A DNA stretch of 43,278 nt from Bacilli bacterium (lineage in GTDB: Bacteria; Bacillota_I; Bacilli_A; RFN20; CAG-826). Within the stretch, counting starts at the first letter, position 1; the number at the start of each line of letters is the position of its first letter. The notes beneath the pieces were generated by a model that was not told the origin of the DNA, ran no database searches, and worked only from the letters and a program-made list of their open reading frames with translations. Positions 10,181 to 43,278 of the stretch are shown here, piece by piece. The translations under genes were made by a program, and so were the position numbers. Where the stretch lies: contig JAKSVF010000014.1 of the NCBI GenBank assembly GCA_024408235.1, positions 1 through 43,278 on the forward strand. Direction: 5' to 3'.

Positions 10181-11230
10181 ATGAAGAACAAAAAAGCATT
10201 AATGGGCCTTGCTGTTGCTACATTACTTCTCACAGGATGCGGTGGCAAAGATCCAGTTAAATCAAGCGGAAACACTCCAGACAAGACATCAGAGACAAAC
10301 ACATCAGCTGTTGTTGGCACTTCAGAGGCAGGAGGCACATCACAGGCTGGTGGAGAAACAACTTCATCAAAGCCTAAAACCTCTACAGCTCCTGTTTCAA
10401 ACAGAAAGCACACCGTTAAGATCGGCGATGGTGCAGCTGAAGAAGTTTCAGAAGGCACAGCTCTTACCAAACCAGCAGATCCAGAAGCACCTGCAGGACA
10501 GGCATTCTATGGTTGGAAGAACGTTGAAAACGGTGGACAGATTTGGGACTTCGAAAGAGAAGACCTCAACAAAGTCATGCAGGATGTCACACTCGAACCA
10601 TTGTTCGTTCCAGCAGACATGGATCCACAGATCTTCGAAGCTGAGCTTTGCCACGATATCACAGACGTCTATGGCGGCGAATTAGGTATGCCTGGTGCTA
10701 CATATTCAGGCGGTCAGCAGGGAAAAGGCTTAATCGGACGTGACTTCTATGATGAATATGGCGTCACTGGCTTCGATGAAGATAACCTCGCATTCGTCCA
10801 TTTCATGTATGTTAAGGGCGATACATTAACTTGGGAACTCGACCTCGAGAACGATGTTGATAACGTTACAATTCTTGCTAGATTTGGCGCTGAATACGGC
10901 GTTACAAACCCAGAGAACGACGAAGTTTGGGCAAGAGTCACTCAGGATTCATTCCCAATCACTGTCAACGACAAAAAGCTTGAATACGGAACAATCACAC
11001 TCCACAACATCCCAGAAATCGGACAGTTCTTATCATTCCAGGATTATTTCCTCAGCGCATCAGTCTCATTACACGCTGGTAGAAACGTCATCCAGATGAA
11101 AGTTGATAACATGGATACATTAAACGGAACTATCGCTTCCTCAGCTCCATGTGTTGACTCAATCAAACTCTTCTCTTCAGAAGAAATCATGTGGAACACA
11201 GCAGTTTTAGAAAACCTCGAGAGAGACTAA
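10181..11230 (+). CDS. Lipoprotein with one InlB-type repeat and a CBM6/35-like domain
   Basis: 349 residues. Lipobox LLTGC with Cys20, then a Ser/Thr-rich linker to about residue 70. Residues 72-145 form one InlB B-type repeat (opening HTVKIGDG, then FYGWKNVENGGQIWDF and a closing beta strand). The C-terminal part (about 150-349) resembles galactose-binding-fold CBMs of the family 6/35 type. It begins QIFEAELCHDITDVYGG and ends SLHAGRNVIQMKVDN...CVDSIKLF, the usual final strands with a ligand-site pattern. No catalytic motif is visible. It lies 32 bases before the double-anchored GH3 gene and likely shares its mRNA. It probably keeps oligosaccharides near the GH3 enzymes. The counterpart in cassette 2 is at 26905. 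Confidence 0.8.
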   Translation: MKNKKALMGLAVATLLLTGCGGKDPVKSSGNTPDKTSETNTSAVVGTSEAGGTSQAGGETTSSKPKTSTAPVSNRKHTVKIGDGAAEEVSEGTALTKPADPEAPAGQAFYGWKNVENGGQIWDFEREDLNKVMQDVTLEPLFVPADMDPQIFEAELCHDITDVYGGELGMPGATYSGGQQGKGLIGRDFYDEYGVTGFDEDNLAFVHFMYVKGDTLTWELDLENDVDNVTILARFGAEYGVTNPENDEVWARVTQDSFPITVNDKKLEYGTITLHNIPEIGQFLSFQDYFLSASVSLHAGRNVIQMKVDNMDTLNGTIASSAPCVDSIKLFSSEEIMWNTAVLENLERD

Positions 11231-34105: not shown

Positions 34106-35599
34106 TTAGAATCTTTCGTTGCCTGTTGTGTCAGGAATCTCAACATATGATGGGATTGTGGTGTTGTTGAACGTAGAAACGTCGAGGTTGAAGACGATTT
34201 TCTGCTCAACGACTCTTCCATATTCAGAATATGCATATCCCGTATTGATGGTCATCGATCCGTTTTCGTGAAGCTCTAACTCGAAATCGCTTGTTCTAGT
34301 TTCAAGAACCTGTGAGTTAACGCCTAAGAACTGGAAGTCGAAATAGCTCGCTATGCTTGTTCTTAAAACATCATTCTCAACTATATAGACGTTATCGGTG
34401 CCTTCTTTTAATGAGAAGATTGAGGCTGAGACGGCGCCTAAGTTTGGTCCAAGACCGCTGAAAGTGTCGATTGCGTATGCAGCAGAGCTTGAGAGCATGA
34501 TGAGGGCTGGATAATACGAGTCCGTATTTGCGTTGTATGTGAACTCATATCCGTAGTATTTCTTATTGGCGTTACAGATTACTGCTAAATAATCGTAATC
34601 GTCTTCTCTAGTGTAAACGGATGTGTCATCTGGAGAATCGTCGTGGTGGAAGAAGGCGACATCTTCTGTGAAGTATCCCATTATGTGGTCTTTAACGCTT
34701 CCGTCTTCGTTGATGTAGTCCTTTGAGTACTTGTAGTTTGTAACCCCATTAAGACTGTTTAAGGCCGCCTGGAGTCTTGGATTGCTATTCTCGCAAGGCT
34801 TTATGTGAGCAAGTTCGCTTTCTTTGCCGAATTTAGAATATTCAAGATCAAATGTGGTGGTTCTTGTGTATGTGTCACCTTCTCCACCTTCCATGCCCAT
34901 TTCAAAGTGCAATGATGTGATCTGATGTTTGTCGTTTGTCGTGATTGTTGATCCGACGACCGCCATAGCGGCTGCAGATCCATAACACTCCAAGGCAAAT
35001 GAAGCTTTATCTAAAGATAACTCATACTTGTTATTTGCTACTTTTTTGATGTCCCTAGGCTGGATGTAATCGAACGGGTTTCTGAATTCGCTGTCGAATG
35101 AGATCGGGATGTATGTTCCGGATTCATAGTCATAATCTGACTGGAGGAAGGATTGAACCTCGTTATCTACACCTAGATATTCTGCGACGATTACGCCTGT
35201 TTTTTCATCGCGGAAATAGAGCCTTTCTCCGTTGTCATAAACCGTCTTCAAAGGATCCCCGTTAGCGTCTGTAACAAAGTTATGAGTGCCTTTTTCGAGA
35301 TCGATTGCAGTTCTAATCGTCCTATCTTTATACCCTCTACCTTCCTCTTTAGAATAGGAATATGTTCTTTCGGAAGATGTACCAAAGAATGTGTCTATTG
35401 CGTCTGGATCGACCTGATTAACATAGATGTCATAGCTTATGTTTGCGGTGTGGGAAACGCCTTTTAATGAGTTGATGACCTCTTGTAGTTCTGGGTCAGC
35501 TTTCTCGAATGAGTAGTGGTTTTCTTTGTTGCCTGTTGAACAAGCGGCAAGAGATGCTGCAAGAAGGAAAGAGATCAAAAGTAATTTATTCTTTTTCAT
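34106..35599 (-). CDS. Large lipoprotein with two similar halves, family unknown
   Basis: 497 residues, lipobox LAAC with Cys20. Two halves begin alike: DPELQEVINSLKGVSHTANI near residue 35 and NPRLQAALNSLNGVTNYKY near 275. Each continues as beta-rich sequence, so the protein looks like a tandem duplication of one beta-sheet domain. The general style recalls LolA/LppX-like lipoproteins, but I cannot assign it. No catalytic motif is visible. It is the last gene of a four-gene operon, 13 bases after the paralogue at 35613, and is followed by a bidirectional terminator. Codon use is mixed, unlike the GH3 cassettes. Confidence 0.8.
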   Translation of the reverse strand: MKKNKLLLISFLLAASLAACSTGNKENHYSFEKADPELQEVINSLKGVSHTANISYDIYVNQVDPDAIDTFFGTSSERTYSYSKEEGRGYKDRTIRTAIDLEKGTHNFVTDANGDPLKTVYDNGERLYFRDEKTGVIVAEYLGVDNEVQSFLQSDYDYESGTYIPISFDSEFRNPFDYIQPRDIKKVANNKYELSLDKASFALECYGSAAAMAVVGSTITTNDKHQITSLHFEMGMEGGEGDTYTRTTTFDLEYSKFGKESELAHIKPCENSNPRLQAALNSLNGVTNYKYSKDYINEDGSVKDHIMGYFTEDVAFFHHDDSPDDTSVYTREDDYDYLAVICNANKKYYGYEFTYNANTDSYYPALIMLSSSAAYAIDTFSGLGPNLGAVSASIFSLKEGTDNVYIVENDVLRTSIASYFDFQFLGVNSQVLETRTSDFELELHENGSMTINTGYAYSEYGRVVEQKIVFNLDVSTFNNTTIPSYVEIPDTTGNERF

Positions 35600-35612
35600 T
35601 GTTGCTACCCCC

Positions 35613-36857
35613 TTAAGCCTCAGGCTCCTCTAACCAAAGAGGAAGCGTTGTTGTTCCCTGGTTGGTGTATGTGTTCTTTATGGCGATGTTGCCTGTATAG
35701 AAGAAGAACGTTGTTGAGACGTAGTCAAGCTTGTCGCCTTTGGTATATACCTCTGCGCTTAAGCCCGTGCCCTCTGTTATGCCCATCATCGGAAGAATGA
35801 AGTTATCGGCTCCGAATGAGGTTGCCTCACTCTTTAACGACATATGGTTTTCGCTCTTATCTTCAAAAAGATATGGCGACAATGACTTTATATCAGGGAG
35901 AACTGTTGAGATATCTACAGTCTCGTCTCTAGTCCACTCTTTACCGGTGTAGACATAGCTTCTATATCCGCTGCCTTTTTTAACGTAATACATATCGTTT
36001 GCAAGCATGGTGTGTTCCTTGCTATCGAGATGAATGAAGACTTTGTCTTCTGTAACGTAAGCGGTTGCCTTTGTCTCGGCGGCGTTGCTATCGATATTCA
36101 TCGTGTAGTTGTTGCCGAGTGAATTGACTGCGGTTTCAAATTTATTTGATTTTTCCTTGTATGGTTCAAGGTATTTGATTGGTTCTAAATCGTAATCGAA
36201 GGTGAGGGAACCTGTCATGTCACAGTCAACAGTCTCAATTGAGCCTTCTCCGGTTTCGATTCCAACAGGAAGGGTGCCGAAATTGAAGGCAATTTCATTA
36301 ACTAATCCGTCAGCGTTCAATCTCACGATGGCTTTGTTCACTGGCTGTGAGAAACCTGTGTAGTAATTGAAGAGAAGATAAGCTTTCTGAGAAGAGAGAA
36401 TCAACGTCTCATCAATGTCTTCAGGGCTCAGGAAATCAAATGGTGAGGCATAATACTTCGCGAAGCGGTAGTAAGATGTTAAACCCATCAAATAGCTTCT
36501 TTCGACGGTGTTATCCTCTTTGATGATCTGAGAATACATTCTTCCGTCTTCAGATTCGTAGTAGGTGTAGTTTGTTGTTTCTCCGATTTCTCTTGCGGCA
36601 CGAAGCTTGGATGGATCGTTATCGATGTATCCGTATTCACGGATGAGGGATACATCTCTAACAGAGTCATATGCTTCGTATCCACTAGGGAAAGTCTCGG
36701 TTTGTGTTCCTTTGAATGTGACTCTATATGTGGCTTGTCTCATTCTTTCGATGAGAATTCTAGCCTCTTCTTCATAGTCCTCGGTTTCGTTATTGGCCCC
36801 ACCGCATGAGGTGATCGCCATTAAACAGATAGGAAGGAGTAGTATTTTCTTTTTCAT
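35613..36857 (-). CDS. Lipoprotein, paralogue of the 34106 gene product
   Basis: 414 residues, lipobox ITSC with Cys18. It shares landmarks with its downstream neighbour: a SPFDFLSPEDI segment (PFDYIQPRDI in the neighbour) and a second-half opening SNKFETAVNSLGNNYTMNI. It again seems to consist of two related beta-rich domains, with a shorter second half. A Gly/Asn-containing acidic stretch follows the lipidated Cys. The gene is four bases after the upstream stop, so the two are coupled. Function unknown; binding of a hydrophobic or glycan ligand is only a guess. Confidence 0.78.
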   Translation of the reverse strand: MKKKILLLPICLMAITSCGGANNETEDYEEEARILIERMRQATYRVTFKGTQTETFPSGYEAYDSVRDVSLIREYGYIDNDPSKLRAAREIGETTNYTYYESEDGRMYSQIIKEDNTVERSYLMGLTSYYRFAKYYASPFDFLSPEDIDETLILSSQKAYLLFNYYTGFSQPVNKAIVRLNADGLVNEIAFNFGTLPVGIETGEGSIETVDCDMTGSLTFDYDLEPIKYLEPYKEKSNKFETAVNSLGNNYTMNIDSNAAETKATAYVTEDKVFIHLDSKEHTMLANDMYYVKKGSGYRSYVYTGKEWTRDETVDISTVLPDIKSLSPYLFEDKSENHMSLKSEATSFGADNFILPMMGITEGTGLSAEVYTKGDKLDYVSTTFFFYTGNIAIKNTYTNQGTTTLPLWLEEPEA

Positions 36858-36861
36858 GTCG

Positions 36862-38295
36862 TTATTCTCCTATCAAAATTGCAAACGCGTCCTTTAGATC
36901 CTTGTTTGTCGATAAATCGGTTGTGTCGAATTCGCCAAATGATGTGACTGCGCTTATTGCGTCGCCTCTTGAGTCTTCGTAATTTAGTGTGAAGACAGGG
37001 AGACCGGCCTCATCGATCTTAATGGACAAGTAGTGGAAGTTCATCGCATAGTCGGCTGTGTCAGATAAATAGTAGCCAAACTTATCAGCACACGGATCGA
37101 CTAAGCCGAATAAACAGTTGAGTATGTCGAAAGAGAATGTGTAATCATCGAAGTAGAATTTGTCTAAATCGAAGACATATTCACCCTTTTTAGCGTTATA
37201 TGTGAAGAATTCATTGCTCAATATGTCTATTTGAGGGATGAAATCTAATACGGAATCGAAATATTGGTTGGATGTTATTCCGGAATAATCCGCTTCTGGA
37301 GAGACGCCGCACATGTAATATCCATAGAATGATGAATATGCAGCACCGATATAGGTTTTTCCATATTCAGCTGAATACCAAGGAATATCACAGAGCATTG
37401 CTCCAAAGCCGTTTTCATCATAGCAATAATAGTTGTGATAGACACCGTTTAAGTCTGATTCATCGAGATATGGGTGTTTCACGGTTTGGGTGAAGTTAGC
37501 GCCTTTTACCTTCTCTCCAAGCAATTCTAAAGATGTCTTTAAAGCGTTCTTTGTTGTTTCATCATCGCTAGATGTGACAGTTGGGATTGAAGGAACGTTT
37601 TCAATCGCAGATAAAGTTGAATCAAACGACTCTTTTAAACCGCCAAATCTGTCTTTTTTGATTTTGACGAAAGACATTTTTGCTGGATTGCCTTCGACAT
37701 CACTTGTGATGGATAGCGAATCAATAGACTCCTGGACAGTTTTGGAATCCCAATTGAACACATCGCCATAGAAAGCGAAGAAGGATCCGAATATAGATGA
37801 GGCTTTAGCGAGTCCCTGAGCGTTTGCGGTGTAAGTATAAGTCTCATCTTCGTTGGCTTTTACATCGAAGTATTTGCCGATTGATGCGCTTGATCCAGCG
37901 ACTTTTGAAAGCGGCGAACCATAGTTATCTTTAAAACTTACAGGCGAAGAAGAGAATGATCTGGTCTCGATTGTGTTGCTTAGCGAGATATATTCTTCAA
38001 CTGCAAAGCCGTTTTTGGAAACGATTGATGTGTAGGAGACGATGTTGTCATCGGAATCATAGACAACATTAGCTTTAGCGTTGGATGAGACCATGTCTTT
38101 GACCTTGAATGTCTCTTTTAAATAGCCATTGTAGACCGTTGACTCTATTGAGTATGATCCGGAGAAAAACGCTGCAAATTTAGATGCGACTTCATCCTGA
38201 CTGTATTTTTTCTTAATGCCAGCTGCAACGTTTGCTGCGGTTGAACAACCTGTCAAAAGGAGACCGGCAACAATTAATAAACTAGTCTTTTTCAT
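36862..38295 (-). CDS. Lipoprotein, third member of the tandem family
   Basis: 477 residues, lipobox LLTGC with Cys17. The layout is the same: a helix (KYSQDEVASKFAAFF) followed by beta-rich sequence, then a second unit starting NALKTSLELLGEKVKGANF. It is more divergent than the other two and richer in Tyr and Phe in its second half (YHNYYCYDENGFGAML). Its ATG overlaps the TAA of the upstream M6-like gene by one base, which indicates translational coupling. No known catalytic motif. It probably works with the M6-like protein and the two other lipoproteins at the cell surface. Confidence 0.76.
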   Translation of the reverse strand: MKKTSLLIVAGLLLTGCSTAANVAAGIKKKYSQDEVASKFAAFFSGSYSIESTVYNGYLKETFKVKDMVSSNAKANVVYDSDDNIVSYTSIVSKNGFAVEEYISLSNTIETRSFSSSPVSFKDNYGSPLSKVAGSSASIGKYFDVKANEDETYTYTANAQGLAKASSIFGSFFAFYGDVFNWDSKTVQESIDSLSITSDVEGNPAKMSFVKIKKDRFGGLKESFDSTLSAIENVPSIPTVTSSDDETTKNALKTSLELLGEKVKGANFTQTVKHPYLDESDLNGVYHNYYCYDENGFGAMLCDIPWYSAEYGKTYIGAAYSSFYGYYMCGVSPEADYSGITSNQYFDSVLDFIPQIDILSNEFFTYNAKKGEYVFDLDKFYFDDYTFSFDILNCLFGLVDPCADKFGYYLSDTADYAMNFHYLSIKIDEAGLPVFTLNYEDSRGDAISAVTSFGEFDTTDLSTNKDLKDAFAILIGE

Positions 38296-39911
38296 TATTT
38301 TGCCCTCCTTACAGTTACCTTTGCTTCGTCGCTTGAAAGAGAATCAACTGTGAAGGTTAAACCTAATTTAAGTTCTCCGTCACCATTTCCATCTAGAGCG
38401 AAATTTGTATAGAAGCCGTCGATATCGCCGTCTTTTCCAAACGAATCGCCTTCAAGGAATAAGTCATCATCGCTCAGTGCGAATGTGGTATCTGTCATGT
38501 GGCGATTGAAGCCGTTCTTTGATAACTCTTCGATTAAAGGATAATCCTCGAATATGCCTGAATCTGAATATTCGTTGTATCCGCTATTAGAGAAAGCATA
38601 GTCGTAGTAGGCCTTTGCTTTCTTGCCATTGTCTAAGGTGATCTCTTTTGTAAAATCAGGTGCACCATCGGCCATGGCAACACTGGTGTTTGAAATGCCC
38701 TCGACTAATCTTGCGTCCACTTTATAGACCCTGATGCCAGACTCTTTATATCCAACATTGCCGTAAAGGTTGAACAAGTAGGCCGTTTCTGAGTCTGGAG
38801 CATTGAGTGCAGTTGGAGTGTAGTACTCCAGCATCAAATATTCGCCATATATTCCTGTTTCTTCTGGAGAAAGCATCAAAACATCTCCGCTTTCGCTATA
38901 TGGTTTTAATGTATATGTCTCTTGGTCGTTTAATTTAGAGGCGACGACCTTTGTTGGTTCAATCCAACCCAATTGGTATTTTGTGAAAGGGTTGTGATCG
39001 CTGATATAGCCATCCATCATGTCTCTGTGGGCTAAAGGAGAACGGATGAATCCATCGTAGGTGCCTGTCGTATCTCTATAATCTTCAACGCCCATTTGTC
39101 TTGCCGTGTGATTTATAGCGGTGTGTGAGTCAAATTTGATTCCTGAGACTTCTGACGATCTTCCGCTTAGCCATGAGACTGAATTCACCGGACTATCATT
39201 GCCTAGTTCAGAATTGAAATAAACGTCTGTGGTGAGAAGAGTTGATACGAATTCATACATGTCTGGATAGCCCATCATGTAGTAGACTTCCGCTGGAAAC
39301 CAGCTGTAATTCAGCGCGATTGCATCGATCTTTCCATCGTCATCCGCATCAAAGTCCTTGAGATAGTATGTTTCGGTCTCCTCGAATAAGAAGTCATACA
39401 CATAATCCACGATTTCTTTTACGACATACTCTGTTCCAAAAACTATCGAATCATAGATATAGTCAGTAATGGCATTTTCAAGCTTAACAACAGGAGTTAC
39501 GACTCCAGATAAGTTGAGCTTCATTTTGCTAGATTGGTTATAGTATTCCACAACCGATGGCAATTCTTCTTCTGAACCGTCATTTTCAAAATATATGCCG
39601 TTCAATCTGTTTTTGGCACCGGATGTATAGTTGTAATCATTTGCCTTATCGTCACTAAACTCCACAGGAACGACCAAGATATTCGCTTTGCCTTGCTGCG
39701 GGAGCCCGGCCTTCCCTTGCGAGGCTCTCATTTTTCCTAAGTCATTGTAGATTCCTTGAGGATTTTTAATTATAGGCTGATCCGCATTATCAAGAGCATG
39801 GGCTCCTGGCGTCCAGTTTTTATCGTAGTCATCTTTTGTTTTGTTGGAGTTGTTGCATGATGTGGCAAGTAAAGACACCGCCATTAATGCAATTATTTTG
39901 TTCTTGTTCAT
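38295..39911 (-). CDS. M6-peptidase-like lipoprotein with degenerate zinc site
   Basis: The ATG at 39911, behind AGGAGAG, begins a lipoprotein signal (MNKNKIIALMAVSLLATSC, Cys19) and gives 538 residues; a longer frame upstream lacks support. Family traits of immune-inhibitor-A-like M6 peptidases are present: ILVVPVEFSD, SVVEYYNQSS, the Asp-rich DFDADDDGKIDAI and MMDGYISDHNPFTKYQLGWIEP. The zinc-site region reads NHTARQMGVEDYRDT (His268), where active relatives have HExGHxLGLxDxYD; the HExxH motif is lost. Peptidase activity is therefore doubtful. A beta-rich C-terminal half has an Asp-rich stretch DGDIDGFYTNFALDGNGDGE. It is the first gene of the lipoprotein operon. Confidence 0.82.
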   Translation of the reverse strand: MNKNKIIALMAVSLLATSCNNSNKTKDDYDKNWTPGAHALDNADQPIIKNPQGIYNDLGKMRASQGKAGLPQQGKANILVVPVEFSDDKANDYNYTSGAKNRLNGIYFENDGSEEELPSVVEYYNQSSKMKLNLSGVVTPVVKLENAITDYIYDSIVFGTEYVVKEIVDYVYDFLFEETETYYLKDFDADDDGKIDAIALNYSWFPAEVYYMMGYPDMYEFVSTLLTTDVYFNSELGNDSPVNSVSWLSGRSSEVSGIKFDSHTAINHTARQMGVEDYRDTTGTYDGFIRSPLAHRDMMDGYISDHNPFTKYQLGWIEPTKVVASKLNDQETYTLKPYSESGDVLMLSPEETGIYGEYLMLEYYTPTALNAPDSETAYLFNLYGNVGYKESGIRVYKVDARLVEGISNTSVAMADGAPDFTKEITLDNGKKAKAYYDYAFSNSGYNEYSDSGIFEDYPLIEELSKNGFNRHMTDTTFALSDDDLFLEGDSFGKDGDIDGFYTNFALDGNGDGELKLGLTFTVDSLSSDEAKVTVRRAK

Positions 39912-39949
39912 GGTTTCTCTCCTAAAAACGCTTAATAAAATTACCAAAA

Positions 39950-39965
39950 TGCATATAATAATGCA
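39950..39965. promoter_or_regulatory. Palindrome and candidate promoter between divergent lipoprotein genes
   Basis: TGCAT-ATAATA-ATGCA forms a dyad at the middle of the divergent gap. On the plus strand it contains TATAAT (39954-39959), with TTAATA (39932-39937) 16 bp upstream. A regulator could control both directions here. Confidence 0.35.
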
Positions 39966-40004
39966 ATAAAACTAATAAGTTTTAACTTAGGAGGAAGACG
40001 TCGA

Positions 40005-41324
40005 ATGAGAAAAAATGGATTGATTATGTTGTTCCCGCTTATCGCTGCACTTGCTGCATGCGGAAACGTTAATACACCTTCAAAAAATGAAGGTGGCAGC
40101 GATTCTAAAATTGATGACACTAGCGTTGCGGAGGTATCTGCCTCAGTTGTTTCAACAAGCGAATCGCCTGTTGTTTCATCCAGTGAAAATGCCGCAGAAT
40201 CGTCTTCTGATGATGAGAAAAATCCAAGCGAATTAGAAATCCTTTACGGAAATTACGAGGCTTTTGCCAAGAATTACAAAGCTTTGGTGAATAAAGAAGC
40301 GCACAGTTTAACTTACTTTAATAAATCCTCCTCCTTCACATCCATGCCAACCAAAGTTACAGTGGATATCGATGATGATGAATATCTGATGACTAGCATT
40401 CCAACCGATGACGATGGCAACGATTTGAACCCAAGCTATAGATATTTTTTCCTCAGCGAAGATGAATATTATGATGTTGATTATGATGGCTCATATTATT
40501 CGAACGCTAAGAGATACAAAATTGGCGAGTCTAACCCAATGGCTAATGACATCATCTCTTCCTCTGAGGCCAAGACGCAGTTTGATGAAGCAATCGAGTA
40601 TGCAGGAAATTCCATTGGAAAAATATATACCATCCAATATGACATTTATTTGCATGAGTTAAGAGATGCATTCCAGCTCTTATCATATGATTTCTATGAA
40701 GAAGACAACGGCTCTGCCTATATCGAATTCAAAGCGATGCAGAACATGGGCTATTGCGGCAATTATTTCACAATCGAGCTTGATTTAACCCCAAACGGCG
40801 ATATCAAAACCGGTTATTTCAAGAGAGAGATGTATCTTGGAAAGGGCTGGGATGGAGATAAAGGCGAGAAGGTTGAAAACGCAACGCCTACCGTCTGGTA
40901 TTCCTCATCGGTATCGAATGTCATATATTCTTCAATCGAGAACACAAAACTATTCGACGCCTCTAGATTCTTCGCCGAAAGTGCAACAGGCATCACATAT
41001 CACTATTACCAATCCGATATGGAAAGTGGATTATCAACAGAGACCTCCGAAATGCTTGTCGGTGAGACCATTAACATCTTCCAGTTTGATTTTGATGGAG
41101 TGAGAGTCAGCCCATCAACCGCGGTTGACATTCACAACATATTCATCACGGATAGTTCAAACAAAGATGTCATTGATTTCGAAAATTATCAATGGACTGC
41201 AAAATCAGTCGGAACAACCGAATTGACCCTTGGCAATTCATTCAAGAAAGATATCGCTAAGGTGACTGTATCGGTCGTTAATGAGAGAATGATAGCTGCA
41301 CCATCAGAAAATCCTGAAAAATAA
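40005..41324 (+). CDS. Lipoprotein of unknown function with C-terminal Ig-like strand pattern
   Basis: 439 residues, preceded by a clear AGGAGGA. Lipobox LAAC with Cys19, then a Ser-rich linker to about residue 72. The middle (about 80-330) is beta-rich and Tyr-rich with no family I recognise; it shares a general style with the three lipoproteins encoded on the other strand. The last 80 residues (EMLVGETINIFQF, SVGTTELTLGN, DIAKVTVSVVNE) look like a bacterial Ig-like (BIG) domain. The gene is divergent from the M6-like operon with a 93-base gap, so the two units may be co-regulated. Two hairpins follow. Confidence 0.78.
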   Translation: MRKNGLIMLFPLIAALAACGNVNTPSKNEGGSDSKIDDTSVAEVSASVVSTSESPVVSSSENAAESSSDDEKNPSELEILYGNYEAFAKNYKALVNKEAHSLTYFNKSSSFTSMPTKVTVDIDDDEYLMTSIPTDDDGNDLNPSYRYFFLSEDEYYDVDYDGSYYSNAKRYKIGESNPMANDIISSSEAKTQFDEAIEYAGNSIGKIYTIQYDIYLHELRDAFQLLSYDFYEEDNGSAYIEFKAMQNMGYCGNYFTIELDLTPNGDIKTGYFKREMYLGKGWDGDKGEKVENATPTVWYSSSVSNVIYSSIENTKLFDASRFFAESATGITYHYYQSDMESGLSTETSEMLVGETINIFQFDFDGVRVSPSTAVDIHNIFITDSSNKDVIDFENYQWTAKSVGTTELTLGNSFKKDIAKVTVSVVNERMIAAPSENPEK

Positions 41325-41376: not shown

Positions 41377-41422
41377 AGGCATAGCTTCCAGAGATTAGTC
41401 TAGAAGATATGCCTATTCTTTT
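41377..41422. terminator. Long terminator hairpin between the lipoprotein and fic genes
   Basis: AGGCATA (41377-41383) pairs with TATGCCT (41408-41414). The stem is extended inside by CTTCCAGA against TCTAGAAG, and ATTCTTTT follows. Confidence 0.75.
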
Positions 41423-41476: not shown

Positions 41477-41545
41477 TTCTTTTCTCGTAAATTCAACATA
41501 AAAATGAGAGAAAGTAATGTAATATGAGAGTTTATTTTTTTATAT
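41477..41545 (+). repeat. Inverted partial copy of the fic promoter and start region
   Basis: On the plus strand this stretch carries TTTTCTCGTAAA, TAAAA, ATGAGAGAAAG and AATATGAGA in the same order and nearly the same spacing as the region upstream of fic on the minus strand (42570-42627). It faces into the 3' end of fic and overlaps its last codons. Confidence 0.5.
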
Positions 41546-42578
41546 AAAACGTACTTCTTCCGTTTCCTAGTTTCTCTATTTTTCCTTCTGCCAATAGTTT
41601 AGCAATTCCTTTTTCTACTGCACTAATAGATAACCCAGGACAAAGTTCAGCTATATCTGTTTTTGTGATTTTGCCAATCTTTCTTTCGAAGGCTAATTCA
41701 ACCATTTCATTCGCGTTAACTTTCTTTGTTACTAATGCAACTCTACTTTCAAAGTCTCTATATGCCATATCTATGATTGAGAGCATATATTTGATAAATG
41801 GAGTTGGGTCATCTTTTTCTTCATACCACCCGTCTTGACTTTCTGAAAGTGCATCATAATAAAGGTCTTTGATGGATGCAATCTTAGCTTCGAGGGAAAT
41901 GTATTCTCCAACACAGTATCCGCTCCTATAAAGAAGCAAAGTAGTTAATAGCCTAGACATCCTCCCGTTACCATCTGTAAATGGATGGATGCACAGGAAA
42001 TCATGGATAAAGATTGGAATTAAAATTAATGGATCGATATTTCCTTCTTCGACAGCTTTATTATACGTATCGCATAAACTTTCAATGGCTAATGGCGTCT
42101 CATAAGGTGCTAACGGCATAAAGATTAAGTAATCTTTACCATTTTCGTCTGTGCCAGAAATTTGATTAGGGGTATTTTTGTATTTCCCTCCACAATTATT
42201 CCCTTTTACATGGCTTAATAGAATCTTATGAAGTTGAAGAATGTAATTAGGAGTTAAAGGGATATATTCAAAACTATCGTGTATGATATTAAGCGCATCT
42301 CTATATCCAGCAATTTCTTCTTCGTTTCTGTTTTTCGGTGTAGTCTTTTTCTCAACAAGTCGTTTCAACCTAGTGTTTGTGGTTCTGATTCCTTCAATAG
42401 CGTTACTTGCTTCGGTTGATTGAACTTTGGCAATCTCCACTAATCTATCAAGTTCTTCTGGTTTCTGAGAAAGATATAATTCTTGTCTTCCTTTTGCTTC
42501 GTGGATGCTGGTTAATAATCCTATGATGTCTGAACCGAATTTCATTGAGTTTAGACGTGAATAATCAAAATATCTCAT
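41532..42578 (-). CDS. Fic-domain protein with N-terminal inhibitory helix and C-terminal winged helix
   Basis: 348 residues. The Fic core motif HPFTDGNGRMSR begins at His198 and is complete, so AMP transfer from ATP to a protein hydroxyl is expected. A class II inhibitory motif SNAIEG (Ser58-Gly63) lies in the N-terminal helix and should hold the enzyme off by blocking the ATP gamma-phosphate site. The flap YLIFMPLAPYETP is present. The C-terminal 60 residues (KITKTDIAELCPGLSISAVEKGIAKL, GRSTFYI) form a winged helix typical of chromosomal Fic proteins, suggesting DNA binding or autoregulation. Base composition is more AT-rich than its neighbours and it lies by the ATPase gene, so transfer is possible. 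Confidence 0.93.
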   Translation of the reverse strand: MRYFDYSRLNSMKFGSDIIGLLTSIHEAKGRQELYLSQKPEELDRLVEIAKVQSTEASNAIEGIRTTNTRLKRLVEKKTTPKNRNEEEIAGYRDALNIIHDSFEYIPLTPNYILQLHKILLSHVKGNNCGGKYKNTPNQISGTDENGKDYLIFMPLAPYETPLAIESLCDTYNKAVEEGNIDPLILIPIFIHDFLCIHPFTDGNGRMSRLLTTLLLYRSGYCVGEYISLEAKIASIKDLYYDALSESQDGWYEEKDDPTPFIKYMLSIIDMAYRDFESRVALVTKKVNANEMVELAFERKIGKITKTDIAELCPGLSISAVEKGIAKLLAEGKIEKLGNGRSTFYIKK

Positions 42579-42738: not shown

Positions 42739-42776
42739 TATATTTATTAATAGAAATGCGTATCGCAACTATTATG

Positions 42777-42841
42777 TTTTTCGAGTTCAACTAGAAAAAG
42801 CTTTACTAATCTAATGAGTTTTTCGGGTACAACTTGAAAAA
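42777..42841 (+). promoter_or_regulatory. Two palindromic operators, 42 bp apart, upstream of the ATPase gene
   Basis: Two 23-bp sites (42777-42799 and 42819-42841) share the pattern TTTTTC-G-(A/G)-GT-n-C-AACT-n-GAAAAA. The arms of the first match at 10 of 11 positions and of the second at 8 of 11. Their centres are 42 bp apart, four helical turns. The second overlaps the -35 box. Confidence 0.55.
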
Positions 42842-42863
42842 CCTTCAAATACTATGCTAATAT
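42834..42863 (+). promoter_or_regulatory. Promoter of the AAA ATPase gene
   Basis: TTGAAA (42834-42839), an 18-bp spacer and an extended -10 TGCTAATAT (TAATAT at 42858-42863) precede an AAAGGAGG ribosome site. The -35 box lies inside the second palindrome. Confidence 0.6.
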
Positions 42864-42890
42864 AACACTGCGAAAAAGGAGGATTTGACT

Positions 42891-43278
42891 GTGATCAAAG
42901 ACGATTTAATTGTGAGACCAGATTATTTAAATGCCATCAGACCATTCATTGACTTCAATATGATTAAAATCATTGTTGGTGTTAGGAGAAGCGGAAAATC
43001 ATATCTTCTAGATATGGTGGCTGATGAGCTTCTTTCCCGCGGCGTTAAAAGGGATCATATCATCTATAGACTCTACACGAGCGTCGAAATCGAAGAAGGT
43101 TTTAATAAAACAGATATGTTCGATGAACTTAAAGAACAAATCAATGGGGATGATAAGTTCTACCTTCTTTTAGATGAAGTTCAAGAAGTAGATGACTGGG
43201 AAAAATCAATTAATACTCTTTACGAAAAATACAACGTCGATATCTATGTAACTGGGTCTAATTCGAAATTGACATCAA
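42891..43278 (+). CDS. AAA-family ATP-binding protein (AAA_14/DUF4143 type), 3' end cut by window
   Basis: The frame is open to the window end, giving 129 codons. The start is a GTG eight bases after AAAGGAGG. The N-terminus reads VIKDDLIVRPDYLNAIRPFI, followed by the Walker A motif GVRRSGKSYLL (about residues 26-36). A Walker B motif YLLLDEVQEVDDWE follows near 85-98, then the sensor-like strand IYVTGSNSKL. This is the typical start of AAA_14/DUF4143 ATPases, common in gut bacteria and of uncertain function. The full protein would be expected to have a C-terminal DUF4143 domain outside the window. It has its own promoter with two operator-like palindromes. Confidence 0.88.
   Translation, partial: MIKDDLIVRPDYLNAIRPFIDFNMIKIIVGVRRSGKSYLLDMVADELLSRGVKRDHIIYRLYTSVEIEEGFNKTDMFDELKEQINGDDKFYLLLDEVQEVDDWEKSINTLYEKYNVDIYVTGSNSKLTS

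Follow-up and report, generated by a model that had tools for sequence, protein, structure and literature searches.

Two 23-bp palindromes upstream of an AAA ATPase gene, at the right-hand end of the window (the whole 43,278-nucleotide stretch of Bacilli bacterium DNA analysed here), are best explained as an operator array that would be read by the winged-helix (wHTH) domain of the ATPase itself, so that the gene would repress itself. We put the probability of this reading at roughly two in three.

The ATPase gene and the repeats over its promoter

The gene (42891..43278, + strand) encodes an AAA_14-wHTH-DUF4143 ATPase of the PDC-S01 type and runs past the contig end, with contig C12, which overlaps the end of the window by 55 bp, carrying it on to base 876 and completing a frame of 404 codons counted from a TTG (L, G and C numbers denote loci, genomes and contigs of the window's own genome, respectively). 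The probable start codon is not this first-listed TTG at 42885 and instead is the GTG at 42891, which aligns with the ATG of a 96% orthologue, with a ribosome-binding site, AAGGAGG, at 42876..42882 (+ strand). The PADLOC PDC-S01 profile PDLC04787 covers residues 5-402 of the protein (E 1.4e-142), the Pfam AAA_14 and DUF4143 profiles both score above cut-off, and NCBIfam gave matches below cut-off only. Likewise, all 76 homologues in our alignment A1 match PDC-S01.

As the initial annotation had described, two palindromes of the same pattern, TTTTTCGAGTTCAACTAGAAAAA (42777-42799) and TTTTTCGGGTACAACTTGAAAAA (42819-42841), both exact matches and without assigned strand, are offset by 42 bp, and the second spans the -35 of an extended -10 promoter (42834..42863, + strand; TTGAAA - 18 - TG-n-TAATAT). 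The -35-like TTGAAA (42834-42839) is inside palindrome 2, and lies 18 bp before a TAATAT (42858-42863) that is itself preceded by TG. As a promoter scan returned five promoter-like sites compared with 3.2 ± 1.9 in shuffles, we take this promoter as a consensus match only and not as proof. The palindromes are the junctions between head-to-tail inverted-repeat units of ~40 bp, palindrome 1 joining units A and B, and palindrome 2 joining units B and C. Unit A (42749..42787, + strand) begins about where similarity to the 96% relative L012 reaches its left limit, and has a degenerate, inferred left arm, AATAGAAATGC (42749-42759), and a right arm, TTTTTCGAGTT (42777-42787). Unit B (42789..42828, + strand) is formed of AACTAGAAAAAGC (42789-42801), an AT-rich interior and GAGTTTTTCGGGT (42816-42828), while unit C (42831..42843, + strand) consists of a left arm alone, AACTTGAAAAACC, which overlaps the -35.

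The layout of unit B matches the AAACCAAAAAA-n19-TTTTTTGGTTT of ~70% relatives (L013 and L018), and since it scores just 10.1 in our automatic arm-plus-interior scan, under the threshold of the family statistics given below, its membership in this scheme rests on that comparison. The 42-bp period also occurs in L012, L014, L016, L018 and L043, the last of which has a clear tandem form whose unit junction is a short palindrome resembling the two in the window, and cooperative repression of the window promoter would be plausible from this period. The exact word TTTTTC-n11-GAAAAA, for which the initial annotation had proposed a genome search, was found at two places in the whole 1,658,461-bp genome, both of them the window palindromes; with up to one mismatch it occurred at 37 places per strand compared with 34 for a reversed control pattern, which is background.

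Divergent to the ATPase gene is a SoFic-like Fic gene (41532..42578, - strand; PADLOC SoFic, E 3.8e-42), and together they form a ~2.8-kb island that is absent from G027 (L248), where a lipoprotein gene directly adjoins the right flank. The window and L012 share sequence from -153 to about +36 and their neighbours differ, with Fic on one side and PnuC-like and AsnA-like genes on the other in the window, and what we take to be a sigma-factor-like and a PurA-like protein in L012. In G010 (L249) we also observed a decayed window cassette (1109-1641) with the same right flank, 97% identical over 198 gene bases and with much else missing. A separate repeat, GGCATA-TTCCAG-GATTAGTCTAGA, is present at two places in the genome, one near the Fic/ATPase island (window 41378-41404) and one just past another DUF4143 gene (contig C67, 44252-44279). 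By eye, window 34106-41324 contains consecutive lipoprotein-like ORFs that have N-terminal Cys signal-type sequences and may be paralogues.

Inverted repeats at promoters across the family

Of 193 genomes searched for the protein, the window's own among them, 115 had a match at E <= 1e-20. We scanned 147 fetched loci, of which 136 passed for upstream region and length, or 135 without one locus containing a run of N (L084), and addition of the window gave a family set of 136. Those left out were 8 of 144 genes without an upstream region or full-length match, three loci without a blastp hit (L005, L009 and L010) and six duplicates (L152-L157), and 118 promoters served as controls. Inverted repeats were scored over spans of 28-48 bp with an arm-plus-interior function, designed after the family upstream sequences had been read. 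Scores of at least 18 were found in 53/136 family promoters compared with 6/118 controls and 0.6% of shuffles, and scores of at least 16 in 78/136 compared with 18/118, leaving 58/136 family genes below 16. As these loci are phylogenetically related and not independent, Fisher P-values overstate the differences and are a guide only. In a second set, collected afterwards, the same function was applied to 69 of 77 loci, with eight partial-match loci left out, and the 56 that were new, from named MAGs that extend to Spirochaetales and Burkholderiaceae, reached at least 18 in 29 cases and at least 16 in 44. The query proteins for this set came from a clade (A2) already known to carry repeats, and its 29/56 therefore reflects breadth and not an unbiased family rate.

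Palindromy over 23 bp alone differed little between family promoters and the 118 controls or shuffles, and we rejected this score as a family test since it does not separate the family from controls. The features that do are a longer inverted repeat with an AT-rich interior and direct repetition at 39-42 bp. Direct repeats of at least 18/24 were detected in 45/137 family upstream regions (one of these, L084, being the run of N) compared with 10/118 controls, with an offset of 39-42 bp in 25/45 and 2/10, respectively, and an offset of 74-80 in 10 family cases. As a separate observation, the promoter in L103, L115, L119, L126, L138 and L151 lies between two repeats spaced ~75 bp apart, the second of them just 5' of the ribosome-binding site.

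The repeats themselves are clade-specific: AAACCAAAAAA..TTTTTTGGTTT in the window's clade (L013 and L018), and AACCGCAAAA..TTTTGCGGTT, GTGTCACAAA..TTTGTGACAC, TTTCGCAAA..TTTGCGAAA and GTTAAGGGG..CCCCTTAAC elsewhere. By eye they share a common plan, in which two inverted arms, each with a private word and an A-tract on its inner side, surround an AT-rich interior. The earlier expectation that TTTTTC-n11-GAAAAA would mark DUF4143-type ATPase genes generally was not borne out, and the literal word was rejected as a family marker, as a stricter form, TTTTTCNNGTNNNACNNGAAAAA, is present in 1 of 145 genomes searched, namely the window's own, and clades use their own words. Within this same genome there are seven DUF4143 matches, one being the C-terminal part of the window gene on C12, and several of the other genes have promoter-adjoining direct repeats, each with different words. 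Among these, inspection by eye of the more distant DUF4143 genes L006, L007, L009 and L010 showed private promoter direct repeats, which extend into the coding sequence in L006 and have copies downstream too in L010.

The architecture noted for the window, of operator-like sites over the ATPase promoter, recurs 5' of family members. Inverted repeats overlap the -35..-10 region in 48/78 genes compared with 35.0 ± 4.3 under random placement, a moderate excess, with the highest of 2000 random sets reaching 53. The position of the repeat differs among genes, from the -35 to the leader, and repression would therefore fit better than activation.

The ATPase as candidate reader of the repeats

Among the 78 genes scoring at least 16, half-site similarity was 9.78 for homologues from different bacterial families that are at least 60% identical (n=96). 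Below 45% identity the value was 2.66 between paralogues of one genome (n=43) and 2.52 between genes from different families (n=1869), such that same-genome paralogues share no sites beyond background. Judged by these sequence comparisons, the site arms track the gene across bacterial families and not the host. Partial Mantel analysis of the same 78 genes, which corrects for the remainder of the protein, showed that site similarity is associated with the wHTH region (residues 216-290, taken from Pfam wHTH hits; r=0.123, 0/500 permutations), with no such association for the AAA domain (r=-0.010, 288/500) and weak values for the C-terminal domain (r=0.047, 34/500) and for the linker (residues 161-215; r=0.044, 35/500, changing to 0/500 once close relatives are included), and all of these partial correlations are small. 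In an exploratory profile the three highest scanning windows fall in the recognition helix/wing region, and residues 244-286 were picked as a region after this profile. Because the arms track the protein, and its wHTH rather than its AAA domain, the ATPase itself is likely to be what recognises the repeats. The initial annotation had taken the family to be without a well-established regulator and had pointed to a possible one nearby; the evidence leads to the ATPase itself in place of a neighbour.

In the structure predicted for the 96% orthologue (pLDDT 91.7), residues 249-261 form the recognition helix and 265-287 the wing strands. By sequence there was no convincing PDB relative of the ATPase (best E 0.27), and structure comparison using the model gave Z scores of 17.7 to 2qen (rmsd 3.3, 268 aligned), 17.0 to 2fna (3.7, 270) and 13.8 to 2qby_B (9.3, 247), with NLR and CED-4 ATPases in a similar range (up to 17.4) and Cdc6/Orc1 on origin DNA among the neighbours. 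The predicted fold is nearest to SSO1545/PABY2304, with NLR-type ATPases and Cdc6/Orc1 at similar or lower scores. Like Cdc6/Orc1, SSO1545 (2fna) and PABY2304 (2qen), the family has an AAA domain followed by a winged helix, but unlike these it adds a C-terminal nuclease-like domain, and its repeats lie over its own promoter in a single-gene unit. In the case of Orc1, the sites bound are inverted origin boxes that surround AT-rich DNA and often adjoin the gene for Orc1 itself. The C-terminal domain (model pLDDT 87.3) weakly resembles PD-(D/E)XK nucleases, with many of its best PDB matches being the nucleases Bax1, McrC, Hjc, Can2 and RecU, but its top match, 2czr, is not a nuclease and no match reached E <= 0.001. 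The motif of these nucleases is formed of acidic residues plus an (E/Q)xK lysine, and across the 76 rows of the alignment E309 (74/76), D334 (75/76) and Q347 (76/76) are conserved but the lysine is missing, with S/A/T/C at position 349 in 74/76.

We propose that each unit would comprise two inverted arms of a clade-specific word and an inner A-tract, spanning ~40 bp and placed head-to-tail every 42 bp in the window's clade. The bound ATPase would cover the -35 in the window, or the -35, -10 or leader in relatives, and the gene would therefore repress itself, while the AAA domain may let oligomers span adjacent units. A second repeat at the stop codon, seen in a fifth of the relatives examined, would turn the gene and its repeats into a one-gene cassette that could be lost down to a single repeat. 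Protein binding, repression and cooperativity, and likewise a mover of the cassette, are steps that we infer.

Operators that are palindromic and cover promoters are, as a rule, sites for dimeric repressors, and a separate host regulator might bind the palindromes instead, but we regard this as unlikely by a wide margin, as same-genome paralogues do not share sites beyond background, homologues in other bacterial families do, and the exact sites are absent elsewhere in the genome; a shared host regulator is thus not favoured. The repeats could also act in RNA, as a terminator or leader hairpin, since they could fold into long-loop hairpins, some are at stop codons and a subgroup is in the leader, and some high scores in the second set resemble ordinary terminators (e.g. 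L289). Such a role is very improbable, because the repeat of many genes is 5' of the -10 or spans it, and is therefore not transcribed from that promoter, and because arm similarity tracks the DNA-binding domain. Chance pairing of A/T-rich words would suit the AT-rich DNA and the background level of 23-bp palindromy, but it deserves scarcely any credence when the sole two exact sites in 1.66 Mb are 42 bp apart, the period is preserved in relatives and enrichment is family-wide.

Repeats at both ends of the gene and at loci without it

Matches to the upstream region scoring at least 22 were present within 250 bp downstream of 34/135 genes, compared with 1/270 mismatched pairs (0.4%). In 28 of these 34 (28/135 genes) the match is the inverted repeat and starts no more than 34 bp from the first base of the stop codon, while the other six start 80-160 bp on and are the inverted repeat in L054 and L062 but not in L046, L086, L094 and L110. 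No stop-codon copy at this score was found for 107/135 genes, including that of the window, which has no downstream repeat within the 250 bp examined. In the second set, 9/55 new loci had a downstream match of at least 22, five of them at the stop codon and those of L271, L288, L295 and L314 lying 67-184 bases further on.

We also identified loci where the repeat is present and the gene is not. At one, G018 and G033 carry repeat, gene and repeat, compared with a lone repeat at the same place in G026, of the same genus, which was recovered in a search for the gene-absent state with L132 as query; for L128 and L028, both flanks without the gene were not seen among the matches listed. At a second locus, also within one genus, G172 has a lone repeat, whereas in G219 a full repeat is followed by a gene that carries a premature stop and then by a partial repeat. 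A third single-repeat locus, in G250 (query L184), has counterparts in G260 and G249 with both flanks (71-80% identical) and no repeat at all, and the single repeat in G250 is therefore more likely to have been left behind by a lost cassette than to be an old host site; we do not favour a host attachment site that predates the cassette here. The single-repeat query L185 was uninformative, its matches being mostly repeated hits about query 1363-1425, a tRNA-like region.

Two pattern searches of 279 genomes gave 29 perfect-repeat places and zero control hits, with at most two exact copies per genome for these two patterns. Counting by eye, 18/29 abut a family gene or fragment and 11/29 do not (L182, L184, L185, L189, L191-L194, L197, L198 and L203), although in L198 and L203 a family gene of another clade is nearest, 0.4-0.8 kb away. 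As these 11 are away from a cognate family gene, the repeat is not solely an operator. In L198 (G232), a relative of the window Fic gene (310-1377, by eye) was also observed beside a single GTGTCACAAA-type repeat (1501-1537), with another DUF4143-family gene 0.8 kb further on.

These data bear on the alternative that the repeats primarily serve as the ends, for recombination or transposition, of a one-gene mobile element encoded by the AAA-wHTH-nuclease gene, with promoter cover a by-product, which we consider possible but doubtful. It would account for the 28/135 genes with a copy at the stop codon, for the repeat-gene-repeat and single-repeat states of G018/G033 and G026 and of G219 and G172, for the repeat-free flanks in G260 and G249, and for similar cassettes in unrelated surroundings that share sequence to about the repeats (L046/L047 and L134/L147). 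Against it, 107/135 genes have no such downstream copy, other pairs share flank past the repeats (L097/L108 to -227, L143/L150 to -420 and L092/L095 from -95 to +88), no target-site duplication was recognised in the seven groups whose boundaries were set by eye, the nuclease-motif lysine is missing, and ordinary deletion between direct copies can also leave a single repeat. We tentatively raise a further idea, to which we give about the same limited weight, that PDC-S01 is, or is also, a minimal selfish element: an AAA-wHTH-nuclease gene bounded by private repeats that it reads itself, controlling its own dose, spreading among distant bacteria in the form of a ~1.3-kb cassette, and leaving a single repeat on loss, with the window palindromes as its left end.

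Among known systems, RAYTs are HUH (Y1) transposases, and for the window protein there was no Pfam match to such a domain at E <= 1. Unlike RAYT/REP, the gene here is an AAA-wHTH-nuclease whose exact repeat copies did not exceed two per genome in the two pattern searches. As in our family, RAYT genes go together with palindromes of their own that are also found by themselves, but these usually number >100 per genome (PMC2817692). Similarly to our proposal of self-repression, the antitoxin AbiEi of the defence-type system AbiE is described as repressing its own system on inverted repeats (PMC7319586), but AbiE, as portrayed there, is a two-gene toxin-antitoxin system with a different protein. 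The mycobacterial signal-transduction ATPase IniR, which is needed for induction of the iniBAC promoter, has like our family a DNA-binding domain and an AAA domain predicted to be similar to SSO1545, but unlike it has 818 aa, with a MalT-like domain and, separately, a C-terminal domain that binds DNA, and the available sections do not describe it as a private-repeat cassette (PMC5760070).

PDC-S01 is the PADLOC designation for a single-gene phage-defence candidate (AAA_14 plus DUF4143), and we take COG1373 to be the same family. In the portions accessible, PDC-S01 is described as ranking fourth in frequency among prokaryotic defences, with 9,986 archaeal and 29,494 bacterial occurrences and with PDCs unvalidated (PMC12988326), and as the individual locus found most often in rumen genomes, at 10,358 (PMC13356809), while COG1373 appears with 19 genes among gene groups common to gut genera (PMC10782964). 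The same portions of the two PDC-S01 accounts make no mention of an operator, private repeats, a two-ended cassette or repeat-only loci (PMC12988326, PMC13356809). Likewise, repeats or regulation of DUF4143, AAA_14, COG1373 or PDC-S01 were the subject of none of the matches listed in a literature search whose coverage stops short of preprints and most subscription journals.

Because each gene has a recognition site of its own, a DNA ligand of known sequence is available for assays of binding, ATPase activity and cleavage, and the family as a whole represents a large natural collection in which winged helices are paired with their half-sites. These private sites offer a route to asking whether PDC-S01 is a defence system, a selfish element, or both, and if it is indeed a self-regulated mobile cassette, then surveys that count PDC-S01 as immunity would need rereading.
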